Notes under the pieces: generated by a model | Seen by the model: the letters and a program-made list of their open reading frames with translations, nothing else | The model's database searches: none | What the model was told of the DNA's origin: nothing | Translations under genes and position numbers: made by a program | NCBI RefSeq assembly: GCF_017901155.1 | Contig: NZ_CP072800.1 | Coordinates: 1,949,283-2,013,282, forward strand | Origin: Candidatus Thiothrix anitrata | GTDB lineage: Bacteria > Pseudomonadota > Gammaproteobacteria > Thiotrichales > Thiotrichaceae | DNA length: 64,000 bases | Direction: 5' to 3' | Part shown: one piece after another, positions 19,595 through 27,729 of the stretch | Numbering within the stretch: the stretch's first letter is position 1 | How the letters are laid out: each line of letters starts with the position of its first letter

Positions 19595-21356
19595 ATGTTA
19601 TTATTTTTTAGAAGTTTTCTTTTAAAATTTATTGCCTTGTTATTTTTCGTCTCCTATTCTGCGGATTTATATGCAGGATTTGAGGTGGTAAATCCAAATA
19701 CGCGGATATATAGTGACCAGTATAAGATTGGCAATGGGGCAAAGTTGAGTGATTCTGGCACGATCTATACCTATGCCTATATGTCGGGTAGTCAAGTTGT
19801 TGTGTATGTGATGGCAAAATCAGGGTCATTCAAGCAAAATGCCGTTTTTGGTGTTTACAAAGGAGCTATCAATGACAGCAGTCGTATTGCAACTAGTGCA
19901 AATCTTAAAGGGGGGAGTGGCGGTTACGTTTCTTTCACACCAAGCGAAAGTGATTATCGCGTCATGCTTCAGACGACAACAACTGACGGAACAGTTGTAA
20001 GTTTTTATATCAATACGCCTTTTACGGTCACGGTAACAGCCCCCTCAAGCAGCAGCCTTAGTGTATCGCCCAACCCCGGCTATGTAGGGGATCAATTGAC
20101 ATTTTCTACGTCCTTAAATGGTGATTTACCCAGCGGCTATACGGTAAAAATCACACTGGCTGACAGTTCTGGTAACTGGACACTGAGTGAGCATGATATG
20201 TCTGGTTCTGGACGTAATTTCACATACCAGCGAATCATGAATGAGGCAGGGCAAAATAGGCAGTACCGGGTTGCCATCTTCAAAGGGTCAGCGCGTAAAA
20301 CAGATTGGTATTACGGCACATATACAGTTAAGGAAAAATTACCCGAAGTTTACAGCGTCAGCCCGCTAACGGGTGATTTAAACAAAGACCAGACTTATAC
20401 AGTGACGGGAGTAAATCTGCCTTCCAGCCTAGTGTTTACCATTGCGGATGCCGATGACTGCGGGCAAACTTCGTATAACTCAAGTTCGGTGACATTTAAC
20501 TGTATCCCTCGCCTCTCCGGTAGCAAAAGTTACAGTGTCAAGAAACAAAGCCAAGGCGATATATTGAAGACCGGGATTATCAACGTGGACAGCGGCATCA
20601 CTGGGGTGTCAGTTTCGCCCATTTCCGGCTACGCGGGGGATCAGTTCACCTTCTCTGCTATTCTAAAAAATGACTTACCATCGGGGTTCAGCGTGAAAAT
20701 TACTTTCGCCAATGCCTCTGGTAACTGGACACAAGCGGAACATGATATGTCCGGCGGGTCACGTAACTTTTCATACCCTCGCGTTATTAGTGAAATTGGT
20801 CAAGACAGGCAATATCGGGTTGCCATTTTTAACGGAAATAATCGTAAAACAGACTGGTATTCAGGCACATACACGACTAAAGCAAAACCTATAGCAGTCT
20901 CCAGCGTCAGCCCTGAAACGGGCGAACTGAACAAGGCACAGACTTATACAGTCAAAGGAAGTAACTTACCCTCAAGTTTGGTATTCACCATTGCAGATGC
21001 CGACGACTGTAGACAAACTTCGTATAACTCAAGTTCGGTGACATTCAATTGTACCCCGCGCACCTCCGGTAGCAAAAGCTACAGCGTCAAGAAGCAGAGC
21101 CAAGGCGACGTATTGAAAACTGGGACTATCAATGTCGACAGCGGTATCGCTGGGGTGTCGGCTTCCCCTACTTCCGGCTACGTAGGGAATCAATTCACCT
21201 TCTCCACTACCTTAAAAGATGACTTGCCATCGGGATTCAGCGTGAAAATCACTTTCGCCGATGCCTCCGGTAACTGGACACAAGCAGAACATGATATGCC
21301 CGGCGGACCGCGTAACTTTTCATACCCGCGTGTTATTGATACGGTTGGACAGGATA
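19595..21356 (+). pseudogene. N-terminal part of a giant surface protein, cut by IS110
   Basis: Starts with a signal peptide (KFIALLFFVSYSADLYA) and continues as about 590 residues of secreted beta-rich repeats. A module of about 183 residues recurs three times: SPxxGYxGDQxTFS...SGNWT...EHDM...FxYxRxxxxxGQ, RQYRVAIF, RKTDWYxGTYT, then SVSPxTGxLNKxQTYTVxGxNLPSSLVFTIADADDC. The latter half resembles IPT/TIG-like domains. Inside the third module, after VGQD, the IS110 element interrupts the frame; translation would end shortly inside it (21383-21385). Removing 21357-22559 (1203 bases, divisible by three) restores the frame into RQYRVAIF of the next fragment. Confidence 0.85.
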
Positions 21357-21372
21357 GATACCGTCTTGCCAG

Positions 21373-22356
21373 TCAAGCATTTTGATAGTCTGGCTGATAT
21401 TTTTGTTGGGTTTTCAGCACCCCAAAACAGAGGTGAACCAGCTTGCGCATAGCAGCCCCCAGCGCGGACATTTTAGTCTTTCCCTTTGCCAACAAACGCC
21501 CATAAACAGCCTTCACATGAGCGTTATGCTGGATGGCAACAATGGCTGCCATGTACAGGATGGCACGCAGGTGGGAAGGCCCTGATTTTGACAGTTTGGC
21601 ACGTCCGTTCAGTGAGCTTCCTGATTGCCTTTCGATCGGGACAAGCCCCAGATAAGCCGCCAATTGTTCCGCAGAATTAAAGGTGTGGGCGTGCATGATT
21701 GCCAATAACTGTGTGCTACTTTGCGACCCAATGGCGGGGATGCTTTCGAGCAGTTCCCGGTCATTTTTGAGTGTCGGGTCTTGGTCAATATGGTCATCAA
21801 TTTGTGACTGTATTTTCTTCAGTTGTGCCGTGATAAAGGTGATGCTGTCGGTGATGGATTGCCGGATCAGGGCGGATTCCTTGCCAGCTTCTGCTTTCTC
21901 TTGGCGGTTTTTCTCCCGCTGCAAGTCTTGCTTAATGGCTTCACGCCGTGCCAGCAAGCCTTTCAGGATGCGGGATTCCGCTGATGGCGGCAGCCAGCGG
22001 CTGGGTTTTGTCAGTAACCCATAACGCGCCAAAACACGGCTATCAACACCATCCGTTTTGGTGCGCACACCTAAGCCATAGGCAAACCCTTTGACGTGGG
22101 CAGGGTTGGCAATCGAGACTATGCCTCCCGCATCATGCAAGGCTATTGCGGCTTGTTCGTGGTAAATGCCTGTGGCTTCCATCACGATGTGCAACTCCGT
22201 TACGGAAATATCGCGTGCCGTTAACCAATCCAATAATTTGGCAAATCCAACAGGGCTATTTTCCACCACCTTGAATTTATATTTGTCCTGTTCCTGATTA
22301 ACCAATAAGCTGCAATCCAGCTTGGCTTTGGCTACGTCAATGCCTAAATAATGCAT
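21373..22356 (-). CDS. IS110-family transposase (DEDD recombinase)
   Basis: 327 residues from the ATG at 22356, which has AAGGAG upstream; the frame is open further but without a good start. The N-terminal RuvC-like DEDD domain shows GIDVAKAKLDCS, VMEATGIYHE and KTDGVDSRVLA. The C-terminal Transposase_20 domain has SIPAIGSQSSTQLLAIM and LGLVPIERQSGSSLNGRAKLSKSG, with the catalytic Ser of this family. IS110 recombinases are guided by a bridge RNA made from the element's own leader. The gene appears intact. Confidence 0.96.
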   Translation of the reverse strand: MHYLGIDVAKAKLDCSLLVNQEQDKYKFKVVENSPVGFAKLLDWLTARDISVTELHIVMEATGIYHEQAAIALHDAGGIVSIANPAHVKGFAYGLGVRTKTDGVDSRVLARYGLLTKPSRWLPPSAESRILKGLLARREAIKQDLQREKNRQEKAEAGKESALIRQSITDSITFITAQLKKIQSQIDDHIDQDPTLKNDRELLESIPAIGSQSSTQLLAIMHAHTFNSAEQLAAYLGLVPIERQSGSSLNGRAKLSKSGPSHLRAILYMAAIVAIQHNAHVKAVYGRLLAKGKTKMSALGAAMRKLVHLCFGVLKTQQKYQPDYQNA

Positions 22357-22559
22357 AAAATCGCTCCTTGATATGTGCCAACTTTGCCCATTTTCCTTGT
22401 CCATGCAGGGTCAGTGCCCCTTGGATACCGTCCAGTGTCTGTGTCGGCGAAAGTGGGGATAAAGGGCTTTTTCTATCCTACAAGGTTTGTCCTTAAGGCA
22501 ACTGACAAGCTTCCTTTATCCCGTTGCAATGGTAGCTAACCACTGCAAGCATCAAGATA
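22357..22559 (-). ncRNA. Candidate IS110 bridge RNA (leader of the transposase gene)
   Basis: The 203-base leader contains a long stem on the transcribed strand: GGGATAAAGG (22456-22465) pairs perfectly with CCTTTATCCC (22513-22522), extended by GCTT/AAGC after a two-base bulge. The loop (about 22470-22506) contains two short matches to the sequences flanking the insertion: TATCCT (22474-22479) is the reverse complement of AGGATA, which ends the left flank (21351-21356), and AAGGCAA (22495-22501) equals the right flank at 22561-22567. Nearer the gene, GATACCGTC (22424-22432) equals the first nine bases of the element's other end (21357-21365). That is the arrangement expected of target- and donor-binding loops. 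Known bridge RNAs have the target loop first, as here. Confidence 0.6.
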
Positions 22560-22879
22560 CAAGGCAATACCGGGTTGCTATTTTCAACGGAAATAGCCGC
22601 AAAACAGATTGGCATTTTGGTACATACACAGCCAAAGAGAAAACTACCGTTTCCAGCGTCAGTCCCGAAACAGGCGAGCTAAATAAAACTCAGGTCTATA
22701 CTGTCAAAGGAACTAATTTACCTTCCACACTCGTATTTACATTGGTCGGCGCGAGCGATTGCAAACAAAGCTCTCATACACTAACCACCGTAACATTTAG
22801 CTGCACCTCTAGCAGCTTAGGAGACAAGGCATATACGGTCAAAGACCGTCCTCAAGGAACAACATTAAAACAAGGATAG
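22560..22879 (+). pseudogene. Continuation of the giant surface protein after IS110
   Basis: Resumes at RQYRVAIFNGNSRKTDWHFGTYTAKE and finishes the third 183-residue module (VSSVSPETGELNKTQVYTVKGTNLPSTLVFTL, then KDRPQGTTLKQG). It meets a stop at 22877-22879. One additional G near 22876 would continue the frame as IVKVVLANLSEII into the long frame that follows, giving a single gene of about 2,310 codons once the IS is also removed. Confidence 0.75.
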
Positions 22880-22920
22880 TCAAGGTTGTACTAGCTAACC
22901 TTAGTGAAATTATCTCTTAC

Positions 22921-25900
22921 TTGTCTACTAATGAGCCAATAATTGCAAGGATGCTAACCACTTCTAACTTATCAAAGCCGCTATCTAGGGCTGAAGCAGC
23001 AATTTTGTTGGATGTCTTCTTATATAAGCAAAAGCCCACCTATAAGCAAGATATGTCTGATTATCCCAAAGCTTTTGCAGATGCTGATGAAACGGCGAGC
23101 TATTTCAGTTCAGTGGAGCGTTTGGCCTATTTCAAAGGCAGCCAAGACACTGAAACGGTATTGAGCAAGGAAAATACCTTGTTAAGACCACTTGACAAGA
23201 CACTACGTCAAGAGTTTGTGAAAATGGTAGTACAAGGTTTGGATATAAAGATAAACTCAGGCAGTTCCTATATTGGCGGATTTTCTGATTTCAATCTGAT
23301 CAAAGGCACATGGACGGAGCGTTACTTTAATACAGCGGTAGGTGCAGGTTTTATTTTTGGAAATAATAACAATTTAGAACCAACAAAAGCACTGATCATT
23401 CAAGATGCACTGTATATCTTGGCAAGGGCAAAAGGTAAGTTTAGTTACAGTGGCAATGGCTTTGAAGACCCGTCAGCGTTTGATGATACCAAACACTTGA
23501 GCCAGACTATCGGCTTTGATTACGAGCCATCTAATTATCTATCAAATGCAAAACCGATTGACATAACTGCTGTCAAAACACTAACCACCACCACAACGGA
23601 TGCAGCAAAATGTGGCGTTAGTAGCGGCTCAAACTACAAAGTGCTGGAAGTTTCTGCAACTATAGATACCTCTACGCAGGTGCGTGAATATTATTGGTGG
23701 GCGACAAACTTTGGTTATTTCAAAGAGTATATGGGTGATAAAAAATTCAAGAAGGTATGTTTTTTCCCCGCAGCGGTTGCACCTCAAGGCAACTATCAAA
23801 TAACAGTCAATGGCGGGGATAACATTGGCTATGTCGACCAATATTCTGTTGCAATCTCCCCCGCAGCGTTCTCATATACAGGCCAAGGTGTGCCCGTCGA
23901 TAAGCCGACCAACCAGATTGCAGACATCCAGTACAAGCCCTTGTCCACTATCATGCGCACTGGGAATGCCTATGCTATTGACCTGACCCCCACAGTTATT
24001 GAGAAGACATCCGTGAATTTGGGTGTGGAAAACGTTACGGTGCGTTTAATTGCCGGTAGTTTGGATGAGTTAGTCTTTGCCGGGCAACCTGATGCAGGGA
24101 TCGTAAGGTTTCTTGTACCGGATCATGCCGAATTATATGGCAAGGATGTCAAACTGAGAATTGAGCTTAACACTCAACAAATCCAAGGTGTTAAGGTGAC
24201 AGAAACCATACGCTACTTGCCAAAATTTGTAATAGGTGGCGTGGTTTTTAATGCTGGCATTGACCATAATGCAACTTCGATCAAGGTTGGAAATGAAACC
24301 ATTGCCCTGAACGAAAACAATGAATTTTATACGGAACTGGACGCGACTAATGAAATCACGGGGCTAAAAATACAAGTCAACAGCGATAGTGTTACTAATA
24401 GTTTCGACCAAAAAATCATTGAGTTGACATATGGCAGCCCTAAATTGTTCGTTGACTTCTATGGAGAAAACCGTACTGACAGCGACAGTGATGGTGTAAT
24501 TGATGCGGCGGATAATTGCCCACAAATTGCAAATGCAAACCAAGCCGATACAGACTGGGACGGTATAGGTAATGTTTGTGATAGCGATGATGACAATGAC
24601 GGTATGCCAGATGAATGGGAAACCAAATACGGCTTGAACCCGTTGGATGTCAGCGATGCAGAATCAGATAAGGATAGTGATGGTATTTCCAATCTGAACG
24701 AATATAAGAATGGCACAAATCCAACACAGAAAGATGGTCAAACTCCCGATTTACAGATTTCTGATGCACAATTTTCTGCCAGTATTCAAGCTGGAAAGTC
24801 CCTCACTGTTTCGCTGCAAGTAAAAAATGTAGGCAATGGCTTAGCGGCTGCCTCTACTTTAGAAATATGGTTATCCTCAGATAACGTGTTGAATGAAAAG
24901 ACAGATCCTATTTTAGCTTCAATGACAATATCAGCACTCACAGCGGGAAAAACTGAATTTAAGTCCGTAGTGGTTACGGTTCCTTCAACGTCTAGAGGTG
25001 TACAATATCTGCTGATGAAAGCCGACAGCAAAGGTACTGTGAGTGAAATAAATGAACCTAATAATCTCGTTAAGAAACAGATTTCAATCTCAAATAGTCA
25101 GCCCGTTGCTTATGCGGCTACTGAAACACTTAATGAAGATACTGCAAAAAGTATGACTCTAAAAGCAACGGATGCGGAAAACAACATTCTGACCTATACC
25201 ATCGTCGGACAGCCGACTCATGGTAAAATAACAGTACCGGGCAGCGACGGAAAAATCACGTATACCCCAAATGCCAATTATTACGGAACAGACATTCTTA
25301 CTTTTAAAGTGAATGATGGTGGTTCAGATTCTAAAACTATGGCGGTCAGTATCAACATAAAAGCTGTGAATGATGCTCCTACCGTTACTGCACAAACGCT
25401 GAAAATACCGAGAAATCTGAGGAAAAAAATCCTTTTACAAGGCAAAGATATAGAAGATGGTAATAAACTCACTTACAGCATCAAAACCAAGCCAACACAA
25501 GGGATGCTGGGGACTCTGGTGGGGAACAAGGTGAGGTATACGCCGAAAAAAGGATACGTGGGAAAAGACAGCTTCAGCTTTGTTGTTAAAGATTCCGGCG
25601 GCCTATCCTCCACTGTAGCGGTAGTCAGCATTACAGTGACGGCTACCAATAACCTTCCAGTAGCTAAACCGCAAACGGTCGCATTATCTGAGGACAAACA
25701 GGTGTCCGTTACTTTGGTGGGAACAGATGTGGATCAGGATAAACTCACGTATACGGTAGTGGACAAGCCGCTTAATGGTACATTAGGGTCACTGAGTGTT
25801 GACAAGCTCACCTATACACCTAAAGTCAATTACAGTGGGAGTGATGCCTTTACTTTCAAAGTCAATGATGGCAATGCCGATTCACCTGTGGCAAAAGTTA

Positions 25901-27729
25901 CATTAAATGTAGCGGCTGTGAATGATGCTCCTACCGTTACTGCACAAACGCTGAAAATACCGAGAAATCTGAGGAAAAAAATCCTTTTACAAGGCAAAGA
26001 TATAGAAGATGGTAATAAACTCACTTACAGCATCAAAACCAAGCCAACACAAGGGATGCTGGGGACTCTGGTGGGGAACAAGGTGAGGTATACGCCGAAA
26101 AAAGGATACGTGGGAAAAGACAGCTTCAGCTTTGTTGTTAAAGATTCCGGCGGCCTATCCTCCACTGTAGCGGTAGTCAGCATTACAGTGACGGCTACCA
26201 ATAACCTTCCAGTAGCTAAACCGCAAACGGTCGCATTATCTGAGGACAAACAGGTGTCCGTTACTTTGGTGGGAACAGATGTGGATCAGGATAAACTCAC
26301 GTATACGGTAGTGGACAAGCCGCTTAATGGTACATTAGGGTCACTGAGTGTTGACAAGCTCACCTATACACCTAAAGTCAATTACAGTGGGAGTGATGCC
26401 TTTACTTTCAAAGTCAATGATGGCAATGCCGATTCACCTGTGGCAAAAGTTACATTAAATGTAGCGGCTGTGAATGATCCGCCAACTGCTGTTGCTCAGC
26501 CTATCATGGTGTTCAAGGATGCTTTATTTGCCATTACTCTGGTAGGGACAGACATTGAGGATGCTGCCGACAAGCTGGTTTATGCTATTGCTACCCAGCC
26601 GACCAAAGGCAAACTGGGGGTTCTTGCGGGAAACAAGGTCACGTACACACCAAACAAGGGTTACACAGGAAAGGATAGCTTTACCTTTAAGGTGACAGAT
26701 ACAGGTAAGGCTGTTTCCGCTACTGCCACGGTAAGCATTAAAGTCGTGGCTCAGCCCAACATTAGCTCTATAACCCCTCTGGTCGGGCGCGTAGGTCAAA
26801 CCGTGACGCTTAATATATCCGGCACTAACTTACCCACCACCATTGTGGCAAATATTGCGGCACAGACAGTTGGTTGTAGCAAGACGAAAGCAACGGCAAC
26901 TGCGGCCACTTTCACTTGCCCGTTGAATACGGCGGGTAGTCAAGCTCTGGCTATCAAAACGAAAGCGAACGGCGGAGTGATCATCAGTGGTGGCACTGCC
27001 ACTTTCGTGGTGTCCCCAAAATCGTCTGCAACTGGCAAGCTCAACGACACGGGCATCACGCTTTGTGGGGATTACGCTTACGGTAATAGCGGCAAACACA
27101 ATAATAATGTGTCTTGCTCATTACTTACTGATGCTGATGGCGACCCCGTACCTCTGGGGCAAGATGGTACGTCTGGACGTGATGTTACCAATAATGATGA
27201 TAGTGATGGTCATGCTGGTTTCAGCTTTACTAAAATTAGTAACACAGGCGCGGAACTACCCAACTCTGCCACCGAATGGTCATGCGTGAAAGATAACGTG
27301 ACTGGGTTGATGTGGGAAATCAAGACCGATGATGGTGAGCTACACGATAAAGACTGGACATATTCTTGGTACGAGCCGGACGGAACGAAAAATGGCGGCA
27401 ATGCAGGTAAGCAGAATGGTGGTTCATGTGGTGGTAGCCAATGTGATACTTATGGCTTTGTGCAAGCAGTCAATGCAGTGGGCTGGTGCGGGTATAAGGA
27501 TTGGCAGATTCCAAATAAGATGGATTTATATTCCATCGTCAGTAACGACCGTTCCGCTCCCGCGATTGACACTACCTACTTTCCAGACACGGGTGCATAT
27601 GATGGATTTTGGTCATCGTCTCCTTCATATGCTGACCACGCATATAGCATCCAATTCGCTATCGGTCGCGAAGGTTCGGGTGCTAAGAGCAATTTTTCGA
27701 GTGTCCGGTTAGTTCGTGGGGGACAGTAA
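22921..27729 (+). CDS. Giant surface protein: SLH, TSP3, CARDB, cadherin-like and Lcl domains
   Basis: A 1602-residue frame beginning at a TTG, almost certainly the C-terminal part of the gene starting at 19595. In order: SLH-like repeats (residues 1-190, LSRAEAAILLDVFL, TLRQEFVKMVVQGLDI, WTERYFNTAVGAGFI); beta-rich sequence; calcium-binding thrombospondin type-3 repeats (about 520-600, DSDSDGVIDAADNCPQ, DSDDDNDGMPDEWE); a CARDB domain (about 620-730); five or more cadherin-like/VCBS-type modules ending in YTPKxxYxGxDxFxFxVxD; an IPT-like segment; and a C-terminal Lcl/DUF1566 domain (NVTGLMWEIK, GYKDWQIPNKMDLYSIV, FWSSSPSY, VRLVRGGQ). Two 552-bp units inside it are identical. It is an adhesin-like or sheath-associated protein. 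Confidence 0.85.
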   Translation: MSTNEPIIARMLTTSNLSKPLSRAEAAILLDVFLYKQKPTYKQDMSDYPKAFADADETASYFSSVERLAYFKGSQDTETVLSKENTLLRPLDKTLRQEFVKMVVQGLDIKINSGSSYIGGFSDFNLIKGTWTERYFNTAVGAGFIFGNNNNLEPTKALIIQDALYILARAKGKFSYSGNGFEDPSAFDDTKHLSQTIGFDYEPSNYLSNAKPIDITAVKTLTTTTTDAAKCGVSSGSNYKVLEVSATIDTSTQVREYYWWATNFGYFKEYMGDKKFKKVCFFPAAVAPQGNYQITVNGGDNIGYVDQYSVAISPAAFSYTGQGVPVDKPTNQIADIQYKPLSTIMRTGNAYAIDLTPTVIEKTSVNLGVENVTVRLIAGSLDELVFAGQPDAGIVRFLVPDHAELYGKDVKLRIELNTQQIQGVKVTETIRYLPKFVIGGVVFNAGIDHNATSIKVGNETIALNENNEFYTELDATNEITGLKIQVNSDSVTNSFDQKIIELTYGSPKLFVDFYGENRTDSDSDGVIDAADNCPQIANANQADTDWDGIGNVCDSDDDNDGMPDEWETKYGLNPLDVSDAESDKDSDGISNLNEYKNGTNPTQKDGQTPDLQISDAQFSASIQAGKSLTVSLQVKNVGNGLAAASTLEIWLSSDNVLNEKTDPILASMTISALTAGKTEFKSVVVTVPSTSRGVQYLLMKADSKGTVSEINEPNNLVKKQISISNSQPVAYAATETLNEDTAKSMTLKATDAENNILTYTIVGQPTHGKITVPGSDGKITYTPNANYYGTDILTFKVNDGGSDSKTMAVSINIKAVNDAPTVTAQTLKIPRNLRKKILLQGKDIEDGNKLTYSIKTKPTQGMLGTLVGNKVRYTPKKGYVGKDSFSFVVKDSGGLSSTVAVVSITVTATNNLPVAKPQTVALSEDKQVSVTLVGTDVDQDKLTYTVVDKPLNGTLGSLSVDKLTYTPKVNYSGSDAFTFKVNDGNADSPVAKVTLNVAAVNDAPTVTAQTLKIPRNLRKKILLQGKDIEDGNKLTYSIKTKPTQGMLGTLVGNKVRYTPKKGYVGKDSFSFVVKDSGGLSSTVAVVSITVTATNNLPVAKPQTVALSEDKQVSVTLVGTDVDQDKLTYTVVDKPLNGTLGSLSVDKLTYTPKVNYSGSDAFTFKVNDGNADSPVAKVTLNVAAVNDPPTAVAQPIMVFKDALFAITLVGTDIEDAADKLVYAIATQPTKGKLGVLAGNKVTYTPNKGYTGKDSFTFKVTDTGKAVSATATVSIKVVAQPNISSITPLVGRVGQTVTLNISGTNLPTTIVANIAAQTVGCSKTKATATAATFTCPLNTAGSQALAIKTKANGGVIISGGTATFVVSPKSSATGKLNDTGITLCGDYAYGNSGKHNNNVSCSLLTDADGDPVPLGQDGTSGRDVTNNDDSDGHAGFSFTKISNTGAELPNSATEWSCVKDNVTGLMWEIKTDDGELHDKDWTYSWYEPDGTKNGGNAGKQNGGSCGGSQCDTYGFVQAVNAVGWCGYKDWQIPNKMDLYSIVSNDRSAPAIDTTYFPDTGAYDGFWSSSPSYADHAYSIQFAIGREGSGAKSNFSSVRLVRGGQ
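25363..26466 (+). repeat. Exact tandem repeat, two 552-bp units
   Basis: Units 25363-25914 and 25915-26466 appear identical base for base and each encodes 184 residues (two cadherin-like modules). The next unit (from 26467) starts alike and then diverges. Identity at synonymous sites implies recent duplication or gene conversion; it is also a place where short-read assembly can miscount copies. Confidence 0.93.

Follow-up and report, generated by a model that had tools for sequence, protein, structure and literature searches.

What is the function of the non-coding leader that precedes a recombinase gene in a 64,000-nucleotide stretch of Candidatus Thiothrix anitrata (contig NZ_CP072800.1, positions 1,949,283 to 2,013,282; here called the window, with coordinates counted from its first letter)? 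The gene belongs to an insertion sequence (IS) of the IS110 group, and a preliminary description of the locus proposed that the leader is a bridge RNA whose loops match the element's own insertion site. We are highly confident that it is an IS621-type bridge RNA of a mobile IS110-group element, with circle, guides, and strand exchange as in the mechanism set out below. As read from sequence, this interpretation draws on the anatomy and boundaries of the element, the fit of its guides to the targets of two copies, the agreement of guides with targets and donors among relatives, and a conserved fold.

The element is complete, and its borders and strand need correction relative to the preliminary description: it runs from 21356 to 22563 including both CT cores, and the RNA is on the minus strand. 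The parts that define it are as follows.

21356..22563, minus strand: whole IS110-group element, 1208 bp including both CT cores (second near-identical copy, CT at both ends, uninterrupted homologues of the copy-2 site)
21356..21357, minus strand: CT core at the right end of the element, AG on the plus strand (read directly, copy comparison)
22562..22563, minus strand: CT core at the left end of the element, AG on the plus strand (read directly, copy comparison)
22357..22563, minus strand: left non-coding end, encoding a bridge-RNA-like structure (fold z -3.16, alignment with relatives)
21349..21355, minus strand: right target half, ATCCTGT in recombinase orientation (same seven bases at copy 2)
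22564..22570, minus strand: left target half, GTATTGC in recombinase orientation (copy comparison, guide-target alignment)
21373..22356, minus strand: DEDD recombinase, 327 aa, with its ATG at 22356 (Pfam and structure matches)

The two ends are unequal, with 207 bp of non-coding sequence on the left and 17 bp on the right, as is the layout of the IS110 group; the IS1111-group trait of an RNA in a long right end is absent, the right end being these 17 bp. CT alone is present at both ends and there is no target duplication beyond the core, as judged from the two copies and from uninterrupted homologues of the copy-2 site; the empty target reads ..GTATTGC-CT-ATCCTGT.. in recombinase orientation. 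The match AAGGCAA at 22561, previously taken for right flank, does occur, but its first three bases are the last base of the element and the AG/CT core, and only GCAA is flanking DNA. The recombinase carries the two Pfam domains of the family (PF01548, DEDD RuvC-like, 5.4e-21; PF02371, 2.2e-23) and aligns over residues 1-320 of 327 with IS621 (PDB 8wt6, E 6e-62) and also with ISCro4 (9t56, 5.7e-62). It contains D7, E60, D102, and D105 together with a serine-rich SGSS stretch, which we take to be the catalytic residues. An alternative start at ATG 22404, inside the RNA region, is possible for this open reading frame (ORF).

The relationship between leader and target is most directly seen in the target-binding loop, whose components are the following.

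22513..22522, minus strand: outer stem of the target-binding loop, 5' arm (perfect 10-bp stem; relatives have homologous stems of other sequence)
22456..22465, minus strand: outer stem of the target-binding loop, 3' arm (pairs with 22513-22522; comparison with relatives)
22496..22501, minus strand: left target guide, core-proximal, 5'-TTGCCT-3' (equals TTGC-CT, left target plus core; covariation in relatives)
22481..22495, minus strand: inner hairpin of the target-binding loop, TAAGG/CCTTG (four of five pairs invariant in a set of eight sequences)
22473..22480, minus strand: right target guide, 5'-UAGGAUAG-3' (complementary to CT-ATCCT, then G.U and T.G wobbles)

The 10-bp stem reported previously is exact (GGGATAAAGG / CCTTTATCCC), and the TATCCT within its loop is indeed complementary to the flank AGGATA that ends at 21356. 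On the plus strand CTATCCT (22473-22479) and AGGCAA (22496-22501) lie in the loop; in RNA orientation, TTGCCT on the 5' side equals the left half plus core and UAGGAUAG on the 3' side complements core plus right half, with seven pairs followed outward by two wobbles. TTGCCT and (U)AGGAUAG would thus together specify 11 consecutive core-proximal bases, TTGC-CT-ATCCT, in keeping with the earlier proposal that the current target can be read from the RNA. Of 20,000 dinucleotide-preserving shuffles of the leader, only 3 have the two target motifs correctly ordered and spaced; in a second set of 20,000, the right-guide 7-mer is present in 257.

The preliminary description had tied its reading to the sites occupied by other copies. 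A single further full copy was found in the genome (G000:C1:3368716-3369923); it differs by one base, and its site, GCCCGTTCC-CT-ATCCTGTGG, has a right half identical to that of the window copy for seven bases (CT ATCCTGT) and one mismatch to the core-proximal six positions of the left guide. The larger part of the gene that it occupies encodes a Sel1-repeat protein, with no Pfam match to the other part, and the window copy lies within a TIG-domain gene; both copies are inside protein-coding repeat genes, at a CAG-GAT-AG stretch. The interrupted TIG gene has three homologous repeats, and the full AGGATAGGCAA is present only in the repeat that was hit, the remaining two departing from it by 2 and 3 mismatches. 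The copy-2 flank has a DNA match in 3 of 15 sister genomes (G015, G011, and G002), of which G015 is uninterrupted across the junction (252/297 identical, no gap), as is G011 (215/301 identical, with five gap positions, all away from the junction); G002 gave only a piecemeal alignment.

Guides also track targets among relatives. A genome scan found 179 stretches encoding a relative, of which the best 80 (79 loci) were kept and 48 of the 79 loci were examined; 7 lack a left end by pattern and 9 a right end (one has neither), leaving 41 with a left end and a guide-target table of 43 rows (these loci plus the two window copies). The left-guide set comprises 35 distinct pairs, with L008 omitted (four flank bases) and seven duplicates collapsed, and the right-guide set 33, with eight rows lacking a right end and L023 (three flank bases) omitted and the second window copy collapsed. 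In column-aligned comparisons the left guide has 5.51 of 7 matches to its own target versus 3.03 to the targets of others, and the right guide 3.76 of 7 versus 2.88. None of 100,000 permutations reaches the observed fit for either guide, with or without the window copies, and it counts against the strength of this result that such numbers overstate independence, since the relatives share ancestry. The poor left fit of L017 and L022, both still counted, results from a shifted automatic border or column, and the fit is also poor in L025, L037, and L079. At the level of DNA, matches to the element are found in 3 of 16 genus genomes and in 3 of 63 family genomes, with at most six candidates scored per family genome.

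A second loop faces the element's own ends, and is composed of three features.

22424..22432, minus strand: left donor guide, 5'-GACGGTATC-3' (equals the element's right end; donor agreement at the third base, 34 of 34 elements)
22407..22421, minus strand: donor-binding-loop hairpin, AGGG/CCCT (compensatory changes in two of four pairs, 23 sequences)
22396..22400, minus strand: right donor guide, 5'-ACAAG-3', the complement of CTTGT in the left end (identical in all 23 sequences)

The separate segment noted previously, GATACCGTC on the plus strand at 22424-22432, does recur at the other terminus (21357-21365), and we identify it as the left donor guide; the short matches of the preliminary description thus stand at guide positions, although it missed the right donor guide and the junction promoter discussed below. 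Across 34 elements the variable third base of the left donor guide always agrees with the donor (20 C, 14 T) and eight positions agree in 32, an agreement that probably reflects few independent changes. The right donor guide is invariant in all 23 sequences, and therefore permits no covariation test. Both target guides and the right donor guide cover the core dinucleotide; each guide of the IS621 bridge RNA includes the core, according to the relevant sections of PMC11208160. We note that RNAalifold proposed a consensus helix of five invariant pairs, CTTGT/ACAAG, between the extremities of the left end. We do not accept it as a helix of the RNA, since the transcript, if it begins 3' of the -10 box as expected from IS621, would not contain CTTGT; we read the complementarity instead as that of the right donor guide facing its donor.

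The donor loop bears on the strongest of the alternatives, in which the RNA that acts is a processed seekRNA, short (about 60-100 nt) and with the target-binding loop only, rather than a full two-loop bridge RNA. In its favour, the target loop is a compact unit, but the donor loop is conserved too, and the agreement of its left guide with the donor's variable base suggests selection; we consider a one-loop RNA unlikely.

The two-loop bridge RNA is also consistent with the fold, conservation of which among homologues the preliminary description had named as a test of its reading. The leader folds better than all of 200 shuffles (z -3.16), with two loops, the target loop first, and with the left guide on the 5' side and the right guide on the 3' side of each, as in the IS621-type layout. 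Upstream of both loops is one further feature.

22526..22546, minus strand: 5' stem-loop (eight pairs, four with changes on both sides)

A consensus fold of 23 left ends has 27 pairs, 17 of them with a compensatory change. Pair counts were made with eight chosen close sequences of this 23-sequence alignment (A1), one of which (L035) is outside A1; in these the target loop forms an internal loop bounded by an outer stem of 16 pairs and a hairpin of 5, and 96.1% of cells pair, versus 31.5-51.4% when slid by up to three columns. Changes on both sides affect 11 of 29 pairs, whereas shuffles average 2.9 and none of 500 reaches 11. The automatic stem search chose a non-homologous helix in 2 of the 23 sequences (L015 and L040), in which a homologous 7-8 bp stem is visible by eye. 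A covariance model (R1) built from 18 relatives, with the window excluded, finds the leader at 66.6 bits (E 2.6e-16), a score that rests largely on sequence because the model holds 17 pairs, 4 of them in the outer stem; the next match in the window (6.0 bits, E 7.9) is noise. In the host genome, with 150 of 233 candidates scored, R1 has no match at E <= 0.001 other than the two IS copies. Rfam gave no match to the leader up to E 1, although no check was made that this database includes a family for IS110 bridge RNAs.

A structured 5' untranslated region with control of the recombinase as its role, and with coincidental flank matches, would also fold well and sit directly upstream of the gene, as the leader does, and in ISPpu9 small RNAs are thought to modulate the recombinase (as stated in a passage of PMC11208160). 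The rarity of both ordered motifs among shuffles and the tracking of targets and donors by guides in relatives make this highly improbable; a regulatory role could coexist with a bridge RNA, but would not account for the guide agreement. Recognition of the target by the recombinase alone, with a leader that merely carries copies of past flanks, might explain the 7-base right half ATCCTGT common to both copies, but is scarcely credible given that the two sides of one internal loop of the leader match opposite strands, the top strand for the left half and its complement for the right, and that relatives with other targets have their matches in the same columns of the alignment.

Several observations weigh against the bridge-RNA interpretation, or at least against a simple version of it. 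Copy 2 has TTCC-CT where the guide has TTGC-CT, one mismatch in six core-proximal positions, and the core position in the uninterrupted G015 homologue is TT, not CT. Beyond the 11 specified bases the left guide has one wobble-compatible position and then two mismatches, and the outer left guide CAGTTGC matches GTATTGC strictly at 4 of 7 positions and CCGTTCC of copy 2 at 5 of 7. When a 14-position guide was scored against the 5747 CT sites of the emptied window, two sites beat the element's own on strict matches (10 versus 9) and four tie at 9; the own site has the top wobble-tolerant score (12) among the eight best strict sites. Among relatives the own target is best or tied in 20 of 35 left rows and 7 of 33 right rows, and another element's target fits better in the other 15 and 26; targets are alike in many relatives, and the right guides fit over short stretches. 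The left donor guide pairs with core C, not core T, in the window element and in 30 of the 34 elements, and one of five fold measures, further pair types, is not above shuffles (207/500).

How might such an RNA be made and used? Two promoter boxes are located at opposite ends of the element.

21371..21376, minus strand: -35 box TTGACT in the right end (promoter with the left end only in the circular form)
22554..22559, minus strand: -10 box TATCTT in the left end (junction reconstruction)

Joining of the ends gives TTGACT-N17-TATCTT with a score of 9, versus 7 and 7 for the integrated ends, and a score of 9 is reached by 127 of 5000 shuffled junctions and by 31 of 2558 stretches of the window. 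A spacing of 17 is best in all 21 elements, with the best pair seven bases further upstream in 14 of 20 relatives. The RNA of IS621, at ~177 nt, starts from a promoter at the junction of right and left ends, as described in part of PMC11208160. By analogy with IS621, which is our guide to excision as a circle, transcription, RNA length, ribonucleoprotein formation, and strand exchange, excision would join both ends into a circle and create this promoter, which would then drive transcription of the left end into an RNA of roughly 160 nt. This RNA would fold into the 5' stem-loop, the target-binding loop, and the donor-binding loop; in the target loop TTGCCU would read the left half (bottom strand) and UAGGAUAG the right half (top strand), each together with the CT core, and in the donor loop GACGGUAUC and ACAAG would read the element's own joined ends. 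The DEDD recombinase would hold the RNA and exchange strands at the CT cores.

The targets of relatives raise the further question of whether the element has changed its own. The right guide ends in GTAG, specifying CT-AC targets, in 31 of 41 relatives, and the ATAG ending of the window element is found elsewhere among relatives only in L045. Genome G010, from the same genus, contains a sister element of 74% DNA identity (L088; L008 has the same left end), which has the same ends, a homologous leader, and the same donor guides, but differs in both target guides and in its sites, with left halves (A/G)GCTC and right halves ACA... Four left and three right flanks in G010 fit the different guides of the sister element, with small mismatches, and these guide and site differences fit natural retargeting in one direction or the other. 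Retargeting of the window element itself, as suggested by its GGATAG right guide and matching left guide against the GTAG of relatives, and by a sister beside palindromes resembling repetitive extragenic palindromic (REP) elements, is a tentative proposal that we hold as somewhat less than probable. The 11-base target TTGCCTATCCT occurs in the own genome at 30 places with up to one mismatch (26 for the reversed control) and at none exactly, and this zero is weak evidence since base counts predict about two. With no free perfect copy in the host, any further spread would have to rely on imperfect sites, such as that of copy 2. The sister's target, GGCTCCTACAA, has six exact places in G010 and one in the own genome; enrichment at one mismatch is not shown, as the counts are below control (45 versus 72 in G010, 22 versus 43 in the own genome).

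Other observations accompany these. The left flanks of the sister element (L094-L097 in G010) hold short palindromes, GCTTGC..GCAAGC and CCTGC..GCAGG, that are REP-like in look, and three pairs of GGCTCCTACAA near-matches in G010 are inverted, with starts 23-61 bp apart. G010 also has TTGCCTATCCT with up to one mismatch at 54 places versus 22 for the reversed control, two of them exact, for which we have no explanation. In Halomonas beimenensis (L025, ~1582-1814) one copy of a relative seems to have entered another at the beginning of its recombinase gene, where the site is a poor fit to the left guide of the incoming copy. The host genome codes for a third relative (L092, G000:C1:2717678-2718515; 75% DNA identity over 839 bases) without a recognizable left end and bridge RNA, probably a remnant, and for a near-identical pair of a more distant IS110-family element (L133 and L134, G000:C1:2292440 and 2298059) with a common block of 1204 bases. 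Within 19595-27729 of the window, the element splits a repeat-rich TIG-domain gene, and a 1602-aa ORF (22921-27729) with long near-identical internal repeats lies beside it.

The element may already be catalogued, no literature search by element name having been made, and both the bridge mechanism and natural redirection are published (in the portions of PMC11208160 and PMC11187229 that concern them). The same architecture, core-including guides, an rG:dT pair at frequent IS621 sites, and longer right guides in some orthologues, along with natural redirection, are likewise described in passages of PMC11208160, PMC11208158, and PMC11187229. What the locus contributes is a bridge-RNA target that is readable by eye from raw sequence, an additional natural guide set (a right target guide of seven pairs and two wobbles with a CT-AT target, where 31 of 41 relatives have CT-AC), and, with its same-genus sister, a clean pair for the study of natural target switching. 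To judge from excerpts of PMC11187229, the ISEc21 seekRNA shares a non-coding region upstream of the gene and a bottom-strand match that precedes the top-strand match. IS621, as portrayed in the pertinent parts of PMC11208160 and PMC11208158, shares the homologous recombinase, the RNA in the left end, the CT core, and the circle-junction promoter, as well as the order of 5' stem-loop, target loop, and donor loop with left guides on the 5' side and right guides on the 3' side. The two differ in target, TTGC-CT-ATCCT in the window element versus ATCAGGC-CT-AC in IS621 (given in a section of PMC11208160), in site, with coding sequence at both known copies here versus REP elements for IS621, and in the right target guide, with seven pairs and two wobbles here versus four, and up to seven, in the IS621 descriptions. 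The mechanism is a known one, of which the window element is a clear further example.
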